NCBI GenBank assembly: GCA_029573825.1
Contig: JAKQCH010000075.1
Span: 1 to 32,750, forward strand
Direction of reading: 5' to 3'
Source of the DNA: Spirochaetota bacterium
Lineage (GTDB): Bacteria; Spirochaetota; UBA4802; JAGODF01
DNA length: 32,750 nucleotides
Made by a program: the position numbers and the translations under genes. The notes under the pieces were generated by a model, which searched no databases, was not told the DNA's origin, and was given only the letters and a program-made list of their open reading frames with translations. Shown here one piece after another: positions 6,797 through 24,303 of the stretch (positions within the stretch are counted from its first letter, which is position 1; each line of letters starts with the position of its first letter).

Positions 6797-8764
6797 GTGA
6801 GAAAGACGGTATATTTTATTGCGTGCAGTGTTATGTGCTCTGTGATACTGATTTCCGGAATATCATTTGCAGAGGATACTGCTGCAGATAGTGACCAGGG
6901 GGCGCAGGGGGTTTTCAGGTTCAGGGAGATCGTAGTAAAAGATAAGAAGGATCAGCCGGGAACAGTTTCGGTTCTCGGAGAAAAGGAGGTGAAGCAGTCC
7001 ACCAAAACAGATATTATCGGAGTAATAAGCGAAAATGTATCCAGTTTCCATACAGGTCAGAACCGAATGATGGGGTATGGTATTGCAAACTCAAATTCTG
7101 CAAAAATGAGTATACGGGGCATGGGTGTTTCAAGCTGGGGGCCAACTACAGGATTCCCTATTTACGTTGACGGATTCAGCACGGAAGCGCACATTTTCTC
7201 CCACCCGATGCCGGATGTTCTGGGAATGAAAAATATTGAGCGTATCGAAGTGTATCATGGACCTCAGCCGGTACTCTTCGGATCAGGAGCAATGGCCGGA
7301 GCGGTCAATGTTATCACGAAACGTCAGGAAGTTGACGGATATAAGACTATTGTATCAGGTTCCTACGGAACTGATAATACCACGGATGATTATATTCAGC
7401 ATCGCGGAAAAATGGGAATCATGGATTATGCGGCGTCCTATAACTTCAGGCACACGGACGGACACAGGGAGGAGGAAATAAACGGAACGGAATGCACCTC
7501 TGAATTTACCTCCCATAACGGGACAGCCCGTTTTGGTGTGCAGATGGGTGATCATTTCTATGTCAATGTTAACAGTTATATCGCGCATTTTAAAATGCAT
7601 GATCCCGGTCCGACAAACAGGGTTTTCTCTACAACCGAACTTGAAGTATTTGATGTTACAAGGGGAGGCGGCTCATTAAGCGTTCACAATACCTTTGAAA
7701 AAGCTGAAGGTTTTGTACAGGTTGCCTATAATCAGGGAAATCATACAATAACAGAACCTGCAAATGATACAGTAACATTTCAATCTGTTGATAAAACCTA
7801 CACCGCTAAGCTGCAGGAAACACTCAAAGTAATTGACGGTAACCGCGTTACTGTTGGAGCGGAATATAAAAAATACGGTGGTGATATTACAGATGATGCT
7901 AATACCGGCAAGCTGGAAGATGAATATCTTACTGATCTTTCTGCGTATGGTCTCGTTTCGCAACAAATAACCCGTTATTTGTTACTGTCAGCCGGAGGAA
8001 GATATACTGATAATAATAAATATGGCGGTTACAGCGCATATCAGGGAGGAATAATCGTAACTCCTGTAAAAACTACCAAAATATTTGCAAATGCAGCAAA
8101 AGGATTTAATATCCCCGGTATCCGTTATCGTTTTAATCTTGTGGGTATGCCTGGTCTTGTGAACGATATTAACAATGATCTTGAACCGGAAACAATGACA
8201 ACCTATGAGGCCGGAGTGGAGCAGACACTCTTTGAATACCTGACACTCGGGGCAACGGGCTATAAAATTTATTCACAAAACAGAATCCTTCTGGATAAAG
8301 CCCAGAAGAAATGGGTTAACGCAGACTATGATATCAATTATAAGGGTGTGGAACTCTTCGCACGGTTCAGCTATAAGGATATTGCCGGTGCCCGTATCGC
8401 GTATTCATTCATTGACAACAGGTATTCTATCGGCGGCGAACAGGATATGCTGGCATTTGTACCCAGACATAAAACAGTGTTTGGAATATTCGGAACGCTA
8501 TATAATGTGTATGTAGGTCTGAATGGAGAATATGTGCGGACAATATATCAGGATTATCCTACCTTTAAGCTTGATAATTATTTTGTGTTGAACGCGAAAG
8601 TTGCTTATACATTTCTCCAGCGATATCAGGTCTTTGTTAATTTGAATAACATTACAGACCAGCAGTATACTACATTTATCAGATCGAATAGTATGGGAAC
8701 AGTGTATGGCGATTACGATGTGCCTGGTTTCAATATGCTTGCAGGACTTACTGTGGAATTCTGA
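6797..8764 (+). CDS. TonB-dependent outer-membrane receptor
   Basis: A 655-residue TonB-dependent receptor. It starts with a GTG at 6797, supported by AAGGAGG at 6785-6791. A signal peptide (about residues 1-25, ending ISFAED) is followed by a TonB-box-like EIVVKD at about 44-49. The plug domain contains IYVDGF, IERIEVYHGPQPVLFGSGAMAGAVNVITKR and related motifs. Then comes the 22-strand-type barrel, ending in phenylalanine (GLTVEF) as outer-membrane barrels do. Such receptors import siderophores, cobalamin, metals or sugars using energy from TonB-ExbB-ExbD. None of these three, nor an ABC importer, lies nearby, so the substrate is unknown. The gene stands alone between divergent rlmN and convergent alr. 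By eye the barrel region is more A+T-rich than neighbouring housekeeping genes. That could reflect transfer or simply barrel composition. Confidence 0.93.
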   Translation: MRKTVYFIACSVMCSVILISGISFAEDTAADSDQGAQGVFRFREIVVKDKKDQPGTVSVLGEKEVKQSTKTDIIGVISENVSSFHTGQNRMMGYGIANSNSAKMSIRGMGVSSWGPTTGFPIYVDGFSTEAHIFSHPMPDVLGMKNIERIEVYHGPQPVLFGSGAMAGAVNVITKRQEVDGYKTIVSGSYGTDNTTDDYIQHRGKMGIMDYAASYNFRHTDGHREEEINGTECTSEFTSHNGTARFGVQMGDHFYVNVNSYIAHFKMHDPGPTNRVFSTTELEVFDVTRGGGSLSVHNTFEKAEGFVQVAYNQGNHTITEPANDTVTFQSVDKTYTAKLQETLKVIDGNRVTVGAEYKKYGGDITDDANTGKLEDEYLTDLSAYGLVSQQITRYLLLSAGGRYTDNNKYGGYSAYQGGIIVTPVKTTKIFANAAKGFNIPGIRYRFNLVGMPGLVNDINNDLEPETMTTYEAGVEQTLFEYLTLGATGYKIYSQNRILLDKAQKKWVNADYDINYKGVELFARFSYKDIAGARIAYSFIDNRYSIGGEQDMLAFVPRHKTVFGIFGTLYNVYVGLNGEYVRTIYQDYPTFKLDNYFVLNAKVAYTFLQRYQVFVNLNNITDQQYTTFIRSNSMGTVYGDYDVPGFNMLAGLTVEF

Positions 8765-12582: not shown

Positions 12583-13323
12583 TTATTGCAGTTTTCCCGC
12601 AATTTCACCTGAAAAGTTCCTGCATGCTTCGGGAATATCATTTTCCGAGTGTATCTCAACGCTTTTGTAAAATAATATTTTTGATGATGCCGGGTCGATA
12701 ATACGGGCGGTAAAGCGGTATCCCTCGCCGAACCTTATAACCGAACCCATGAGCATATTTTTTATAATATGGTCTTCGGTGTCACGGGAGGAGAATACTG
12801 CAATCCTCTTTCCCGGGAGCCGGGATGAGAGTTCCGTTTTTAACGCGGCAGTTATGTTCCGGGCTATGGATGTATCAACCCCGCTGTTGTCAAAGGGAAT
12901 TATTCCCACATGATAGATAACCACAGGGGTGCTCACCGCCTGTGGGGTCTCGTGTCTCCCACCTGTGTTTACAGTGACCGGCTCTGCTGCCTGCTGTATT
13001 TCGGTTTCCAGCGGTTTATTCTTTTCAATAATTCTGTGAACCGTATACACTGCCGCACCGGTAATAGTAATCGTTGTGAGAACAGCCGCAGTCCATGCCG
13101 CAACTGTTGCCTTCATAAGGCTTAGGGTGATTCCTGTTTTCCTCACAAAGAAAAACAGCGAAATAATCAGGAATGTCATAAGCCCGTATTGCCTGTTCTT
13201 CTTTAAGATATGAACAATGGTTTTTTTCCGGGATTTCAGCATTTCCTTTCTGACTGCAGGAGGAAGCGGTTCCGTGAATTTATATGTCGACAGCAATGAT
13301 TCCAGGGATATTTTTTCGTTCAT
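12583..13323 (-). CDS. Membrane protein with TolB/CsgG-like domain, probable sigma-factor partner
   Basis: 246 residues. The N-terminal 46 residues are basic and soluble. Two hydrophobic segments follow (about 47-60 and 70-93), then a Thr/Pro/Glu-rich linker (about 103-132), then a domain (133-246). That domain starts [16 protein letters not shown] and resembles the TolB-N/LpoB/CsgG-type fold (strand, Asn-rich turn, helix, then a [18 protein letters not shown] strand pair). Its ATG overlaps the sigma-factor stop (ATGA, 13320-13323), so the two are translationally coupled. That is the normal arrangement of ECF sigma and anti-sigma genes. The zinc-binding HxxxCxxC of ZAS anti-sigmas is absent, so the anti-sigma role is inference. 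Topology is uncertain: two true membrane spans would return the C-terminal domain to the cytoplasm. Confidence 0.7.
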
Positions 13324-13847
13324 AAGAGGTCCTCCAGGTCTGCAACTCCTTTCATTTTAAAATACTCAATGAGACGCCGCATTACAATACTGTATTGATA
13401 GCGAACCTGTCGTTCTGTCATGCCAAGCTGTCTGCCGGCTTCCCTGTAGGTGAAATTGTATAGTGCAATAAGGTCAAAAAGAAGTTTGTTCCTTTCATTG
13501 CCGAAATTTTCCATGTCTTCAAGGGCTTCTTCAATAATAATCCGGGTGTCCCTGAACCCATTCACAAACATAAGGTTGACATCGTTATAAACCTCGTCAA
13601 TGTCGGTATCAGTTCCACCTTTTTTACGAAAGTGTTCTAACACAACATAGCGCAGGGTTCCCAGAAGCCATTTCCGGGGCGTCTGGACCTCATCGAATTT
13701 TTCATAAAACCGGATAAATACCTCCTGGCAAATATCATGGGTGTCATCGGGATTTCCGATCTTGGAATATACGGTGCAGTATACAATCGGATAGTAATCG
13801 CTGTACACTTCCGTAAATTCCCTGGTTTTTTGATCAAGAGAGTTCAT
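13320..13847 (-). CDS. ECF-like sigma-70 family RNA polymerase sigma factor
   Basis: A 175-residue two-domain sigma factor. Region 2 (about 10-75) shows DYYPIVYCTVYSKIG, DDTHDICQEVFIRFYEKF and the -10-binding segment PRKWLLGTLRYVVLEHFRK. Region 4 (about 117-165) has the helix-turn-helix YREAGRQLGMTERQVRYQYSIVMRRL for the -35 element. There is no region 1.1 or 3, which places it in the group 4 (ECF) class. GAGGAT lies 4 bases before the start ATG at 13847. It overlaps the downstream membrane-protein gene by 4 bases and is preceded by a small lipoprotein gene and a CsgG-like/barrel gene on the same strand. These neighbours suggest that it responds to, and controls, envelope components. I could not identify its promoter motif. 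Confidence 0.85.
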   Translation of the reverse strand: MNSLDQKTREFTEVYSDYYPIVYCTVYSKIGNPDDTHDICQEVFIRFYEKFDEVQTPRKWLLGTLRYVVLEHFRKKGGTDTDIDEVYNDVNLMFVNGFRDTRIIIEEALEDMENFGNERNKLLFDLIALYNFTYREAGRQLGMTERQVRYQYSIVMRRLIEYFKMKGVADLEDLL

Positions 13848-13895
13848 CTATATCCTCATGTCACAATAATAGTTCCGGCAATCACTAAATAATAT

Positions 13896-13950
13896 CATTC
13901 ACCCGTCATGGGAATTCCGGCAGCAAAAAACTGTTTTGTGCCGGTGAATG
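13896..13950 (-). repeat. Nested inverted repeats between the lipoprotein and sigma-factor genes
   Basis: An inner stem pairs 13917-13928 with 13934-13944 (11 bp with one bulged G at 13923, 5-base loop). An outer repeat pairs CATTCACC (13896-13903) with GGTGAATG (13943-13950). The two share two G residues, so they could be alternative folds. The element lies just after the lipoprotein stop and about 50 bases before the sigma start. No T tract follows on the minus strand. It may be an attenuator, a processing site or a terminator without a U run. Confidence 0.45.
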
Positions 13951-13956
13951 TATAAT

Positions 13957-14127
13957 TCACTCGAACTTCGAATTGTCCCACTGTGATGTTCCGAAGACAC
14001 CGGGCTCGAGGTTCTTATTATAAATTGAATCTTCCATTGTGTCCGAACAGGATAATGCAGAAAATGCAAGACAACTCACTGCAAAGAGCGTGACCGCTGC
14101 AAGGGGCAATGGTTTATAAAATTTCAT
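13957..14127 (-). CDS. Small lipoprotein, 56 residues
   Basis: The ATG at 14127 has AAGGATAAAG just upstream and begins a classical lipoprotein signal: basic start (MKFYKP), hydrophobic core, then the lipobox SALSC with Cys27 as the lipidated residue. An in-frame ATG at 14175 would put 16 charged residues in front of the signal, so it is not chosen. The mature part is only about 29 residues (CSDTMEDS... ending WDNSKFE), acidic and without a recognisable domain. It lies 59 bases downstream of the CsgG-like gene and upstream of the sigma factor on the same strand, so it is probably part of that unit. I infer that it is an envelope-anchored signal or accessory peptide. Confidence 0.65.
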   Translation of the reverse strand: MKFYKPLPLAAVTLFAVSCLAFSALSCSDTMEDSIYNKNLEPGVFGTSQWDNSKFE

Positions 14128-14186
14128 GGCTTTATCCTTCCTGTTATATTCTTTATATATAAAAAAGTCTTCCATTGTGGTAATGA

Positions 14187-15209
14187 CTAAAATAACGATT
14201 TTGCACCAATTCCCGTTGATACAAAGTATCCCCGGTGATCATGTTCAAAAAACACAGAATAGTCCTGTACCACTGCGAGGTACCATCTGTAGGAAAGCTT
14301 GATGTGAAATTCCCCTCGGACACTGATAAGGGGATTGTAGTAATAACTGGTGCGGTAATTCCGCTCGCCGTATGTTCTCATTTCAATGTCATCATGTTCA
14401 ATTCTGCTGAAAAGATATCCCCCTCCCAGAGACGGTGTGAATCGGACAAAACTGTTAAGGACAAAGGGCTGGCCGCAATGGACAGTAACCGGCGCGATGT
14501 AATAAGAACGGGTTGAATCCTGCCCGGGATCAATGTAAAAAATCCCGGCAGACAGTGATGTGGTGAATGCCGGTAATGGGAATGTGTTCAGGGAATAGCT
14601 TGTGCGGATGCCGTATCCGCCTCCTGCGCCGTCTGAAAAATCTCCCAGTGGTAATATATATTCCGCAGCTGCCGCAATGGTGAACATTCCCGATATGGGG
14701 GGAATGCCGAGGTAGTAATTGTCAATTCTTTCCGCCATGTCCTCCACGGCATTCTGAATATCGTATTCATCATGGGCAGTTATGGGAAGGCTGACATCGA
14801 TGGTGCCGGTCTGAACATCAATAATTCTTGTTTCAATCCTGAAATGTCCGACTTTATTTATCGATCCCACCACAACTTTTTCAACAGAGACCATTCTGCC
14901 GATTGCGGCGGCACGAAACGGGTCCTTAACCGTACCGTGCCGTTTCCCGTAATGCAGCGCCGCAAGCTGAACACGGCTTCGCTCAAGGAGAACAAACTGC
15001 GGGCATTCGAAAAGCTTTCCTGTCATCATGTCGGATACGGCATTTCCCATGGAGGAGGGGCAGTTGTTGGCGTCAAAGTTCATAATGGCAATTGTGATTT
15101 TCCGGACTTTTTCAGCGCTGGCGGTATTCTCCCGAACAGGGGCGCTGCCGCTTATAACAGGCAGTGCAATGAATATCAGAGGTATGAGATAACTATGTTT
15201 CATGGTCAT
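14187..15209 (-). CDS. CsgG-like N-terminal domain fused to a predicted outer-membrane barrel
   Basis: 340 residues with a signal peptide (about 1-23). Residues 36-165 match the CsgG/LpoB-type fold: ITIAIMNFDANNC, a helix ending DMMTGKLF, FVLLERSRV, VSVEKVVVGSINKVGHFRIETRIIDVQTG. This domain is common in envelope proteins of spirochaetes. From about 175 to the end the sequence alternates short aromatic beta strands and turns (for example GGGYGIRTSYSL, YYNPLISVRGEF) and ends in phenylalanine (AKSLF), as outer-membrane beta-barrels do. The predicted place is the outer membrane with the CsgG-like domain in the periplasm. Two ATGs (15209 and 15203) are possible starts, neither with a clear Shine-Dalgarno. 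It is the first gene of a minus-strand run with the small lipoprotein, sigma factor and TolB-like membrane protein. Function unknown. Confidence 0.75.
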   Translation of the reverse strand: MTMKHSYLIPLIFIALPVISGSAPVRENTASAEKVRKITIAIMNFDANNCPSSMGNAVSDMMTGKLFECPQFVLLERSRVQLAALHYGKRHGTVKDPFRAAAIGRMVSVEKVVVGSINKVGHFRIETRIIDVQTGTIDVSLPITAHDEYDIQNAVEDMAERIDNYYLGIPPISGMFTIAAAAEYILPLGDFSDGAGGGYGIRTSYSLNTFPLPAFTTSLSAGIFYIDPGQDSTRSYYIAPVTVHCGQPFVLNSFVRFTPSLGGGYLFSRIEHDDIEMRTYGERNYRTSYYYNPLISVRGEFHIKLSYRWYLAVVQDYSVFFEHDHRGYFVSTGIGAKSLF

Positions 15210-15282
15210 TGCTTGTAACTAAAAAATTTCATACGAATTACTGTACCGGAATGATCAGCATGCCCCTAAGCTTGTAATAAAA

Positions 15283-15308
15283 AAATCTCCAGCACTATCA
15301 TGAGATTT
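15283..15308 (-). terminator. Possible weak terminator (minus strand)
   Basis: AAATCTC (15283-15289) pairs perfectly with GAGATTT (15302-15308). On the minus strand the stem runs directly into a T-rich tract (complement of the A-run at about 15278-15285). The stem is only 7 bp and A+T-rich, so it is weak. Confidence 0.35.
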
Positions 15309-15349: not shown

Positions 15350-15411
15350 AATGGGACTCTATTATAGTGAGGAAACATCACGTAAAATGACAAAAAAAAA
15401 GAGGTCCCATT
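15350..15411. repeat. Inverted repeat AATGGGAC / GTCCCATT
   Basis: An 8-bp perfect inverted repeat at 15350-15357 and 15404-15411, 46 bases apart. It is flanked outward by a second inverted pair, GTACAA (15346-15351) and TTGTAC (15422-15427), with about 10 extra bases on one side. It could be the end pair of a decayed small mobile element or a regulatory structure. I see no transposase remnant between the arms. Confidence 0.35.
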
Positions 15412-22596: not shown

Positions 22597-22645
22597 AAAT
22601 ATTTATAGCAGCTGTAATGAAGGATGTTAATAAAGGGATATGAGT

Positions 22646-23227
22646 ATGATGAAGCTGATTCGATACATATCTGTTGCACTGGTTTTTAACGGAGTGTTTG
22701 TAATGCTTTCCTGTTCTTCAAAACAGCCTGTACGTGTTCTCAGACAGAAAGTTGCAGCGGGTTCAGGTGTTGCGGTTCTTGTGGACGGCCCCAACAACAT
22801 TAAAAATGTTGTGTTATCGCGTTTTATGGGGAGCAATTTTAAAGTTGTCGCCTTTAACGCAGCGGACCTGTATGCGATGAAGGATGTTTTTGATATCCGG
22901 GACTTTAAAAAAGTATCCCACACTGTCGCCCGCGAAGGTGACGGAAGGTCCCTTGCATCTATGGAGCGGACTTTCGATAATGTGTACAAGCTTCATGTGT
23001 ATAATTTTGAAATTAATAAAGCGGAAACTCTCCGGGAAATACGGAGAAACTGGAATGTAAATTATCTGGTCCTTCTGGAATTGAAAGACTGGGAGGAAGT
23101 AAGCTGGGGCAGGGCAATAAACCTCGATACCTTTGAGCTTATCTGGGTGGAAAATTACCCTGCCAGATATAATGATGATCCTGTTACGATCGTGGACCAT
23201 TTTATCCGCAGCATGACAGGCAGGTGA
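22646..23227 (+). CDS. Lipoprotein of unknown family, paralogous to the C-terminal half of the next gene
   Basis: 193 residues from the ATG at 22646. AAAGGGA lies 7 bases before it, while an ATG at 22640 is only 1 base from that site. The signal peptide ends at the lipobox VMLSC (Cys23). The mature domain (about 40-193) contains VAVLVDGPNN, FMGSNFKVVAFNAADL, a central helix with NVY, NYLVLLELKDWE and DTFELIWVEN, and ends DDPVTIVDHFIRSMT. All of these line up with residues 172-342 of the adjacent downstream protein, so the two share a duplicated domain. The look is that of TolB/CsgG-type envelope domains, but I cannot name the family. It overlaps the next gene by one base and is surely co-transcribed with it. 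Confidence 0.7.
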   Translation: MMKLIRYISVALVFNGVFVMLSCSSKQPVRVLRQKVAAGSGVAVLVDGPNNIKNVVLSRFMGSNFKVVAFNAADLYAMKDVFDIRDFKKVSHTVAREGDGRSLASMERTFDNVYKLHVYNFEINKAETLREIRRNWNVNYLVLLELKDWEEVSWGRAINLDTFELIWVENYPARYNDDPVTIVDHFIRSMTGR

Positions 23228-24303
23228 TGAATTATAAATTCTTTCCGGTCTTATGCGCCTTAATCACAACTCTTCTTTTCCCCGCTGTTTCTCATGGGCG
23301 TCCGGTTGTCGCGTTCGGTTATCTCGGCAATGAATCCGGACAGATCGATTATAATTATATTGAAACAGTTTTCCCGGCTTCATTCGCCTCATCATTGCAG
23401 TCGCTGCGTGACATACAGGTCATGAAGCCTGATCAGGTTAACGCTGCTCTCAATCGATATGGCGCGACCCTCAGGAAAAACTATAAGACCTCGGATTTGC
23501 CGGACCTTGCCGAAAAACTGCAGAGTGATGTTTTCGTGTTTGGAAAATTTTTTCCGCTTGAGGAGAACAGGATTAAAATAGTGCTGCACCTTTATGTCCG
23601 GGGTTCCCGGGAATTGTTTACTTTTACCGATATCGGCAGGATGGAGACTCAGATTTACCGCATTGTTGACAGGGTAAGTGTAAAAATTGTGAACTTTTTA
23701 GGCGAACCCAGCAGGTATCGTGCCGCAGCGATTCCCTCCGGCAGCAGGATCGGAATAGTTTCAAACCTTAATGGCGCTGAGGCCAACAGGTTGTATATGG
23801 CCTTTATGAAAAAAGATTACCGGGTGCTTTCCATACAGAGCGCTGATCTTCACAGCAGAATTGATAATGAGATAATAAATAAATTTAAATACATAAGAAC
23901 GGAAAACAATTCATATCGCGATATTGAGGACTTCAGCATATCACCGCTATTAACCGGCACCTGGGCGGGGAAGGGACATGGTGATACTCTCGCCGCAGTG
24001 AAAAGAATATATAATGTCTATAACAGGGACTATGAAAAAAAAGTAACAAGTTCCATGAAACGTATGTCCCTTGCTTTTAATGATGGTATTGATTATCTGA
24101 TGTTTATCGGTTTTTCGGGCTCACGTACTGCCGCGTGGGTGCGGTGTGTCGATGTCCGGGGCGGTGACTTCGTATGGATGGAAACCGGCGTCATCACCAA
24201 TGACGTTGATCCCGTTGAAGGAATCGTAAACGGTCTGGTACACCGGATGACAGATGAAATAAGAAATCCCTTTGAGTCCAGGAAGTCTGGTTTGGGCAGA
24301 TAA
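23227..24303 (+). CDS. Exported two-domain CsgG/TolB-like protein
   Basis: 358 residues. The ATG at 23227 shares one base with the previous stop; a GTG at 23224 is also possible. A signal peptide covers about 1-24 (ending SHG), with no lipobox Cys. Domain 1 (26-160) looks CsgG/LpoB-like: PVVAFGYLGNESG, helix, DIQVMKPDQVNAALNRYG, SDVFVFGKFFPLEENRIKIVLHLYV. Domain 2 (172-342) is homologous to the whole mature part of the preceding lipoprotein. Shared anchors are FM..(Y/F)(R/K)V, ADL, NVY, a Trp before the DFVW/FELIW strand, and DPV...HRMT. The pair therefore looks like a lipoprotein plus a larger fused paralogue that could associate in the periplasm. Function unknown. Confidence 0.75.
   Translation: MNYKFFPVLCALITTLLFPAVSHGRPVVAFGYLGNESGQIDYNYIETVFPASFASSLQSLRDIQVMKPDQVNAALNRYGATLRKNYKTSDLPDLAEKLQSDVFVFGKFFPLEENRIKIVLHLYVRGSRELFTFTDIGRMETQIYRIVDRVSVKIVNFLGEPSRYRAAAIPSGSRIGIVSNLNGAEANRLYMAFMKKDYRVLSIQSADLHSRIDNEIINKFKYIRTENNSYRDIEDFSISPLLTGTWAGKGHGDTLAAVKRIYNVYNRDYEKKVTSSMKRMSLAFNDGIDYLMFIGFSGSRTAAWVRCVDVRGGDFVWMETGVITNDVDPVEGIVNGLVHRMTDEIRNPFESRKSGLGR

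Follow-up and report, generated by a model that had tools for sequence, protein, structure and literature searches.

A spirochaete sigma factor operon in which a putative anti-sigma factor and an outer-membrane protein carry matching domains

We analysed a 32,750-nucleotide stretch of DNA (the window; contig C385) from a spirochaete genome that is 69% complete (3.4 Mb in 600 contigs). Four genes on its minus strand form a conserved operon, called here the module. In order, they encode a predicted outer-membrane protein (OMP), a small lipoprotein, an extracytoplasmic function (ECF)-like sigma factor and a membrane protein, the partner, which we regard as a putative anti-sigma factor. An original prediction, made from this DNA alone, had described such a group, and all four open reading frames were found in their places. 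Relatives picked up by sequence carry the names of 'Spirochaetes' or 'Spirochaetota' metagenome-assembled genomes (MAGs); the order concerned consists of uncultured spirochaetes. The prediction had named a lack of conserved gene order in relatives as a refutation, and this outcome did not arise. The sigma-partner pair is near-universal and the OMP gene always adjoins partners of the window's type (type A, see below), but the exact order OMP-lipoprotein-sigma-partner is found in four loci only, the window included. Most relatives have the order sigma-partner-OMP: the OMP gene lies upstream of sigma in the window and in loci L034, L047, L061 and L062, and directly 3′ of the partner gene in others. 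The arrangement is not due to chance, as both the succession of genes and the pairing of domains are seen again throughout the taxonomic order. In the literature available to us, no paper joins spirochaetes, anti-sigma and CsgG; the module is real and conserved, and apparently undescribed.

The sigma factor (13320-13847, minus strand; 175 residues) was recognized as ECF-like by Pfam Sigma70_r2 (7e-10) and by TIGR02937 (sigma70-ECF, 3e-13), whose match exceeds the cut-off and spans residues 11-161, in agreement with the earlier assignment. Region 4 is present and regions 1 and 3 are absent, as expected for an ECF (group 4) factor. Among 53 family members, region 2 was found in all, and Pfam detected region 4 in just 25 at 1e-3. 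These sequences form an order-specific subfamily, sharing 34-56% identity with the sigma factor of the window and marked in the alignment by the linker NGFRDTRIII and the ending IxxLEDLL. In a sample of 296 genomes of the phylum Spirochaetota, the subfamily profile matched 27 at 1e-20, all within the window's order, and single genomes contain as many as five copies; outside the order, the profile found nothing more than generic ECF similarity. A contig search with a loose peptide pattern of the sigma factor gave mostly generic ECF matches and four true relatives, all of them in Spirochaetes or Spirochaetota MAGs.

The partner gene (12583-13323, minus strand; 246 residues) overlaps the sigma stop by 4 nt (ATGA). 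This overlap, already noticed in the prediction, is near-universal: of the 53 relatives whose neighbouring gene is intact, 52 have it, and in the remaining one it is shortened to 1 nt; in one additional relative, the partner begins about 100 bp past sigma. Throughout the family, partners consist of a constant basic N-terminal tail (N-tail) of about 65 residues, one likely transmembrane (TM) helix and a variable C-terminal domain (C-domain). The tail follows the pattern LLxKYRLxxPV...IxxSKxxxLxxILKxxGxY. In the window it covers about residues 1-66 (13126-13323, minus strand), and not residues 1-46 as first delimited, and is putatively cytoplasmic and sigma-binding. AlphaFold2, run on a 5-row alignment, modelled helices at 7-12, 22-42 and 48-62, a long helix at 69-101 and a confident alpha/beta domain at 136-245 (12589-12918, minus strand; pLDDT about 73-94). 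Pfam gave nothing convincing for the window partner, but Foldseek matched its C-domain to TolB (1e-5), PelC, LpoB, FlgT and the periplasmic domain of CadC. By fold it is therefore TolB_N/PelC/LpoB-like, which bears out the TolB/CsgG-like domain that the prediction had read into the sequence. We locate the C-domain putatively in the periplasm on two grounds: both its relatives and its FecR counterparts are periplasmic, and the stretch linking helix 48-62 to the TM helix is basic.

What the partner does is indicated mainly by its distribution. The N-tail profile matched 26 of the 296 genomes, every one of them among the 27 sigma-positive genomes, and the matches sit directly 3′ of sigma, with a sole exception at a contig edge in the window's own genome. 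It is mainly because this phyletic pattern matches that of sigma that we call the partner an anti-sigma factor, and we infer that it inhibits sigma. Comparison of the relatives shows sigma and its overlapping partner behaving as one inherited unit, and the basic N-tail tracking sigma. As in class I anti-sigma factors, N-terminal helices precede the TM helix, presumably on the cytoplasmic side, and the gene adjoins sigma. In addition, 11 of 52 partners carry a Pfam FecR domain behind the TM helix, the topology of FecR-type sigma regulators. The prediction had stressed that the partner lacks a zinc anti-sigma motif; Hx3Cx2C is indeed found in none of 55 family partners, but its absence is not unusual, as about 44% of class I anti-sigma domains are without it (PMC7406223). 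An alternative is that the partner belongs to an envelope complex and is translationally coupled to sigma with no anti-sigma role. Such a protein would fit the profile searches: no anti-sigma domain family matched any of the 52 partners searched with Pfam, and no solved anti-sigma domain came up in a profile search. However, we consider it quite improbable, as the N-tail is the sole constant part of the partner, follows sigma phyletically and co-varies with it, and the FecR domains point the same way.

Two shortened proteins were observed. Locus L212 (G000:C473, 167-490), the second N-tail of the window's genome, encodes a 107-residue protein made of N-tail and TM helix only, and a contig edge cuts off its sigma. 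At L058, a similar natural truncation of 94 residues is seen, the partner ending after the TM helix with no adjoining OMP gene.

The OMP gene (14187-15209, minus strand; 340 residues) had been described as a secreted CsgG-like domain fused to a predicted barrel. The description stands, with a signal peptide, a periplasmic CsgG/TolB_N-like domain whose Pfam scores lie below cut-off (CsgG 9e-4, TolB_N 0.008) and a predicted small C-terminal beta-barrel whose strands are of low confidence. The protein is not a full CsgG: it reaches 19.1 bits vs a cut-off of 20.8, over 74 residues only, and its neighbours are sigma genes, not a curli operon. In an AlphaFold2 model run on a 3-row alignment, residues 36-168 (14706-15104, minus strand; pLDDT mostly 70-91) form a confident domain with the strand order of the partner C-domain plus two extra helices, matched by Foldseek to TolB, LpoB and CsgG; about 7-8 beta strands follow at low confidence.

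Between OMP and sigma lies the 56-residue lipoprotein gene (13957-14127, minus strand, ATG at 14127), with the lipobox ..ALSC|SDTMED... It was correctly predicted and recurs at the same place in L034, L047 and L062, where its ending is shared with the window (SCSDxMxDxIYxKxLExGxFxxSxWDxSxFE-like), and it is absent from L061. We assign it to the window's subclade of the module.

Other envelope genes of related kinds were seen. At L191 (3869-6145), a CsgG-domain OMP gene adjoins one for a membrane protein that combines FecR with an apparent type-A domain, in this case with no sigma gene. Four anchored phage-tail-collar-like proteins follow the L191 pair; tail-collar-like genes also occur 5′ of the OMP gene in L047, L062 (Pfam Collar, 2e-13) and L190. 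In the window itself, 22640-24303 encodes a lipoprotein and a secreted protein with TolB/CsgG-like features apparent by eye and no match in Pfam.

Partner C-domains are of two types. Type A, that of the window, is TolB/CsgG-like (TolB/FlgO-like). Type B is SH3-like, alone or behind FecR, with the stretch LYNGxxxxGxIxSRGxxYxVxT..G.V.IP...IK; 'SH3-like' is a reading of this pattern with no profile match behind it. Family OMPs are also of two kinds, having either a CsgG/TolB-like N-terminal domain and a C-terminal membrane part, or an SH3-like N-terminal domain, in some followed by FN3, and a barrel. When both members were typed with hidden Markov models (HMMs), 27 loci were A/A, seven were B/B and none was mixed. 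The A/A loci are the window and 26 relatives; in L034 just the barrel is left at the contig edge, and G042 supplies one more A/A locus. B/B rises to nine when L042 and L091 are counted, whose weak B domains were recognized by eye. Fisher's test gave p=1e-8 for 27/0/0/9 and p=1.9e-7 (exact formula) for 27/0/0/7. Every type-A partner has a type-A (CsgG-domain) OMP gene adjoining, and three of the B/B OMP genes lie 2.6-3.5 kb off, one of them on the opposite strand. At least four changes of type map to well-supported branches of the sigma tree (six in the best tree), and in four of four independent pairs the OMP had switched along with the partner.

The domains are also alike in sequence. The OMP-domain HMM matches the partner A domain, down to 5e-14, and hhalign between OMP and partner domains gave about 99% for A-A, 50-88% for B-B and <1% across types. 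The type-A domains of OMP and partner, judged on these alignments, are homologous, and the earlier remark that two of the four genes carry a similar envelope domain was thus confirmed. FecR + SH3-like lipoproteins encoded beside FecR-type sigma modules (L049, L059, L069, L074, L079), sometimes with a 137-143 residue TM + SH3-like protein, are another instance of the same domain on both sides. Three sigma modules whose type-B partner is short (L070, L076, L082) have behind them the gene of a conserved cytoplasmic enzyme of 617 residues that by eye resembles a CoA-transferase; L070 and L082 additionally encode a secreted protein of 238-263 residues.

Because only about 60 sigma/partner pairs are available, too few for residue-level coevolution, partial Mantel tests were used, on 26 type-A loci. 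The partner C-domain correlated with the OMP N-terminal domain given sigma (r=0.42, p=5e-4), and the N-tail with sigma given the OMP (r=0.46, p=5e-4). The N-tail reached 0.13 (p=0.09) with the OMP given sigma, and the C-domain still 0.43 (p=1e-3) with sigma given the OMP. These results come near to what contact of the N-tail with sigma, and of the C-domain with the OMP, would produce. Overall, comparison shows the partner C-domain to match, and co-vary with, the N-terminal domain of the adjoining OMP. This part of the original proposal, an anti-sigma factor that reads the OMP through similar domains, has strong comparative support.

A promoter-like site precedes the operon. A two-block motif was trained on 49 regions lying upstream of sigma genes in relatives; the window was not among them. 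The learned motif, ATTTTTTGTca-N17/19-ACTaTATaA, mostly sits between positions -55 and -90 relative to the start of sigma as aligned. The top score in the window on both strands, 14.0 vs 9.8 for the next, fell at 15360-15398 (minus strand), roughly 150 bp ahead of the OMP gene, where the putative sigma-dependent operon promoter reads TTTTTTTGTCA-N19-ACTATAATA. The pattern TTTTTGTC-N14..24-ATAAT occurs once in the window vs 0.01 expected, and TTTTTTGTS-N19..22-CTATAA once in the 3.4-Mb genome. With whole clades held out, 22 of the 49 sites exceeded the score that marks the 95th percentile among 289 control upstream regions. By this comparison, the operon bears a family-specific promoter-like site, which we read as auto-regulation of the four genes. 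No comparable site was found upstream of the OMP genes of the OMP-first relatives L047, L061 and L062. In an unseeded dyad count, A/T runs swamped the signal. A regulon search of the genome allowing two mismatches gave 8 sites vs 15 for the reversed control, and nothing beyond the operon's own site. The 150-nt leader contains an imperfect direct repeat, ATTTTTTTATTACAAGC / ATTTTTTAGTTACAAGC, at 15212-15290; a structured 5′ leader was considered and rejected (RNA fold z 0.17).

Taken together, we consider that the module is probably a trans-envelope ECF sigma/anti-sigma operon of the cell-surface-signalling type, with no TonB receptor and with a homotypic OMP/anti-sigma pair. The matching domains of OMP and inhibitor suggest a line of signalling from surface to gene. 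Several points weigh against this interpretation. In about one third of the loci of the family, no OMP gene lies within about 5 kb; the partners of these loci are all of type B or unclassified, and some of the loci are near contig ends. Only four independent switches are available, with a sign test of p=0.125, and significance is out of reach at n=4. The Mantel and Fisher tests correct incompletely for shared ancestry and are liberal under kinship. The OMP barrel was modelled at a pLDDT of about 30, and predicted helix 48-62 of the partner would also fit a two-TM topology with a cytoplasmic C-domain. The expectation-maximization (EM) procedure for the promoter was seeded with a T-run observed in the same data. 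Finally, CsgG-domain OMPs are common in genomes of the order (up to 12 matches each), and therefore most of them act without sigma.

This last point is shared by the view that sigma and partner are a true sigma/anti-sigma pair whose OMP and lipoprotein are regulated targets, not inputs, the common domain stemming from an ancestral duplication. A single promoter-like site precedes all four genes, and the OMP is therefore probably a target as well. The same view would leave unexplained the concordant switching of types and the co-variation of the periplasmic domains beyond the sigma tree, which fit contact and not mere co-regulation; the L058 partner, ending after its TM helix with no adjoining OMP, also speaks against it. 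We hold it to be rather unlikely. Another possibility, in fact a sub-case of the homotypic pair with which its probability overlaps, reverses the roles: the anti-sigma factor would sense OMP assembly or abundance, and the N-terminal domain of unassembled OMP would titrate it, tuning OMP synthesis, a homeostasis as in the OMP-peptide input of DegS/RseA. That the auto-regulated operon includes the OMP itself, and that the domains match, agrees with this sub-case, which is inseparable from surface sensing by sequence; taken by itself it appears unlikely.

Ordinary FecI/FecR/FecA signalling, with the TonB receptor encoded at 6797-8764 as transducer, seems highly improbable. Sister loci do contain FecR domains and the receptor gene is 4 kb from the module, but it lies on the other strand with unrelated genes between, and the window partner is without a FecR domain. 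The receptor was rejected as transducer: it has a plug and a barrel and no N-terminal signalling (STN) domain, nor is it linked to sigma in a conserved way.

If the module is a homotypic signalling pair, it could operate as follows. At rest, the N-tail would retain sigma at the inner membrane while the partner's periplasmic CsgG/TolB-like domain binds the homologous OMP domain, the small lipoprotein perhaps modulating the domain pair. A change in the OMP or in its outer-membrane environment would alter the pair, and sigma would be released by conformational change or proteolysis. The input could be a cue at the surface, the amount of OMP or its misassembly. Freed sigma would then transcribe its own operon from the 15360-15398 site, giving positive feedback. 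Elsewhere, an SH3-like pair, accompanied by FecR or not, may be connected to the same sigma/N-tail core. More tentatively, and with somewhat less confidence than doubt, we propose a new class of trans-envelope control, in which one sigma/N-tail core has been rewired in evolution by swapping matched homologous anti-sigma/OMP domain pairs (TolB/CsgG-like or SH3-like), in up to five copies per genome, each with its own auto-regulated promoter.

Such a class would place a second and a third domain pair in a role known best from TonB receptors and STN domains, in a phylum, Spirochaetota, where outer-membrane sensing is little known. If domain matching joins receptor to regulator, receptors of orphan anti-sigma factors should be predictable from sequence. 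The sigma family would also be a source of natural exchange experiments, and a family of partners is suggested for some of the numerous anonymous OMPs that carry a CsgG domain.

The fold common to both type-A domains is that of the TolB_N / LpoB / PelC / CsgG / FlgT superfamily, whose known members act in Tol-Pal, peptidoglycan synthesis, secretion and the flagellum. CadC is a membrane regulator with a TolB-type fold; to our knowledge, no anti-sigma factor with a TolB/CsgG-type fold is known.

On the cytoplasmic side, the partner resembles class I anti-sigma domains (RseA, RsiW, RskA; PMC7406223) in its short helical N-domain before the TM helix, with the zinc motif optional. Unlike them, its N-tail has about 65 residues vs a mean of 101 (PMC7406223) and no profile match. 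The closest taxonomic precedent is the Leptospira pair LIC_12757/LIC_12756, an ECF sigma factor and a FecR-like membrane anti-sigma factor whose 73-residue N-domain is the anti-sigma determinant (PMC12155086, PMC13118517). The family's type-B FecR members are similar to it in architecture. The parts of these reports available to us name no matched OMP partner, and no receptor of the Leptospira anti-sigma factor is known. Unlike the Leptospira pair, the sigma factor and N-tail of the window's order occur in no genome of the phylum sample outside the order.

In overall plan, the module is like FecI/FecR/FecA and PupI-PupR-PupB, with an ECF sigma factor, an overlapping regulator (cytoplasmic N-domain, one TM helix, periplasmic domain) and an outer-membrane partner. 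The closest mechanism is that of PupR/PupB, a homotypic regulator/outer-membrane pair in which the C-terminal STN subdomain of the regulator has the fold of the receptor's N-terminal domain (NTSD) (PMC7186176). In contrast to FecI/FecR/FecA, the module has neither TonB receptor nor STN domain and would use a small barrel with a CsgG/TolB-like or SH3-like domain; its N-tail is short and unrelated, and the domain pair appears to have switched several times within one family. We conclude that what is new here for ECF/anti-ECF trans-envelope signalling would be the anti-sigma N-domain and the matched, exchangeable sensor domain pairs.

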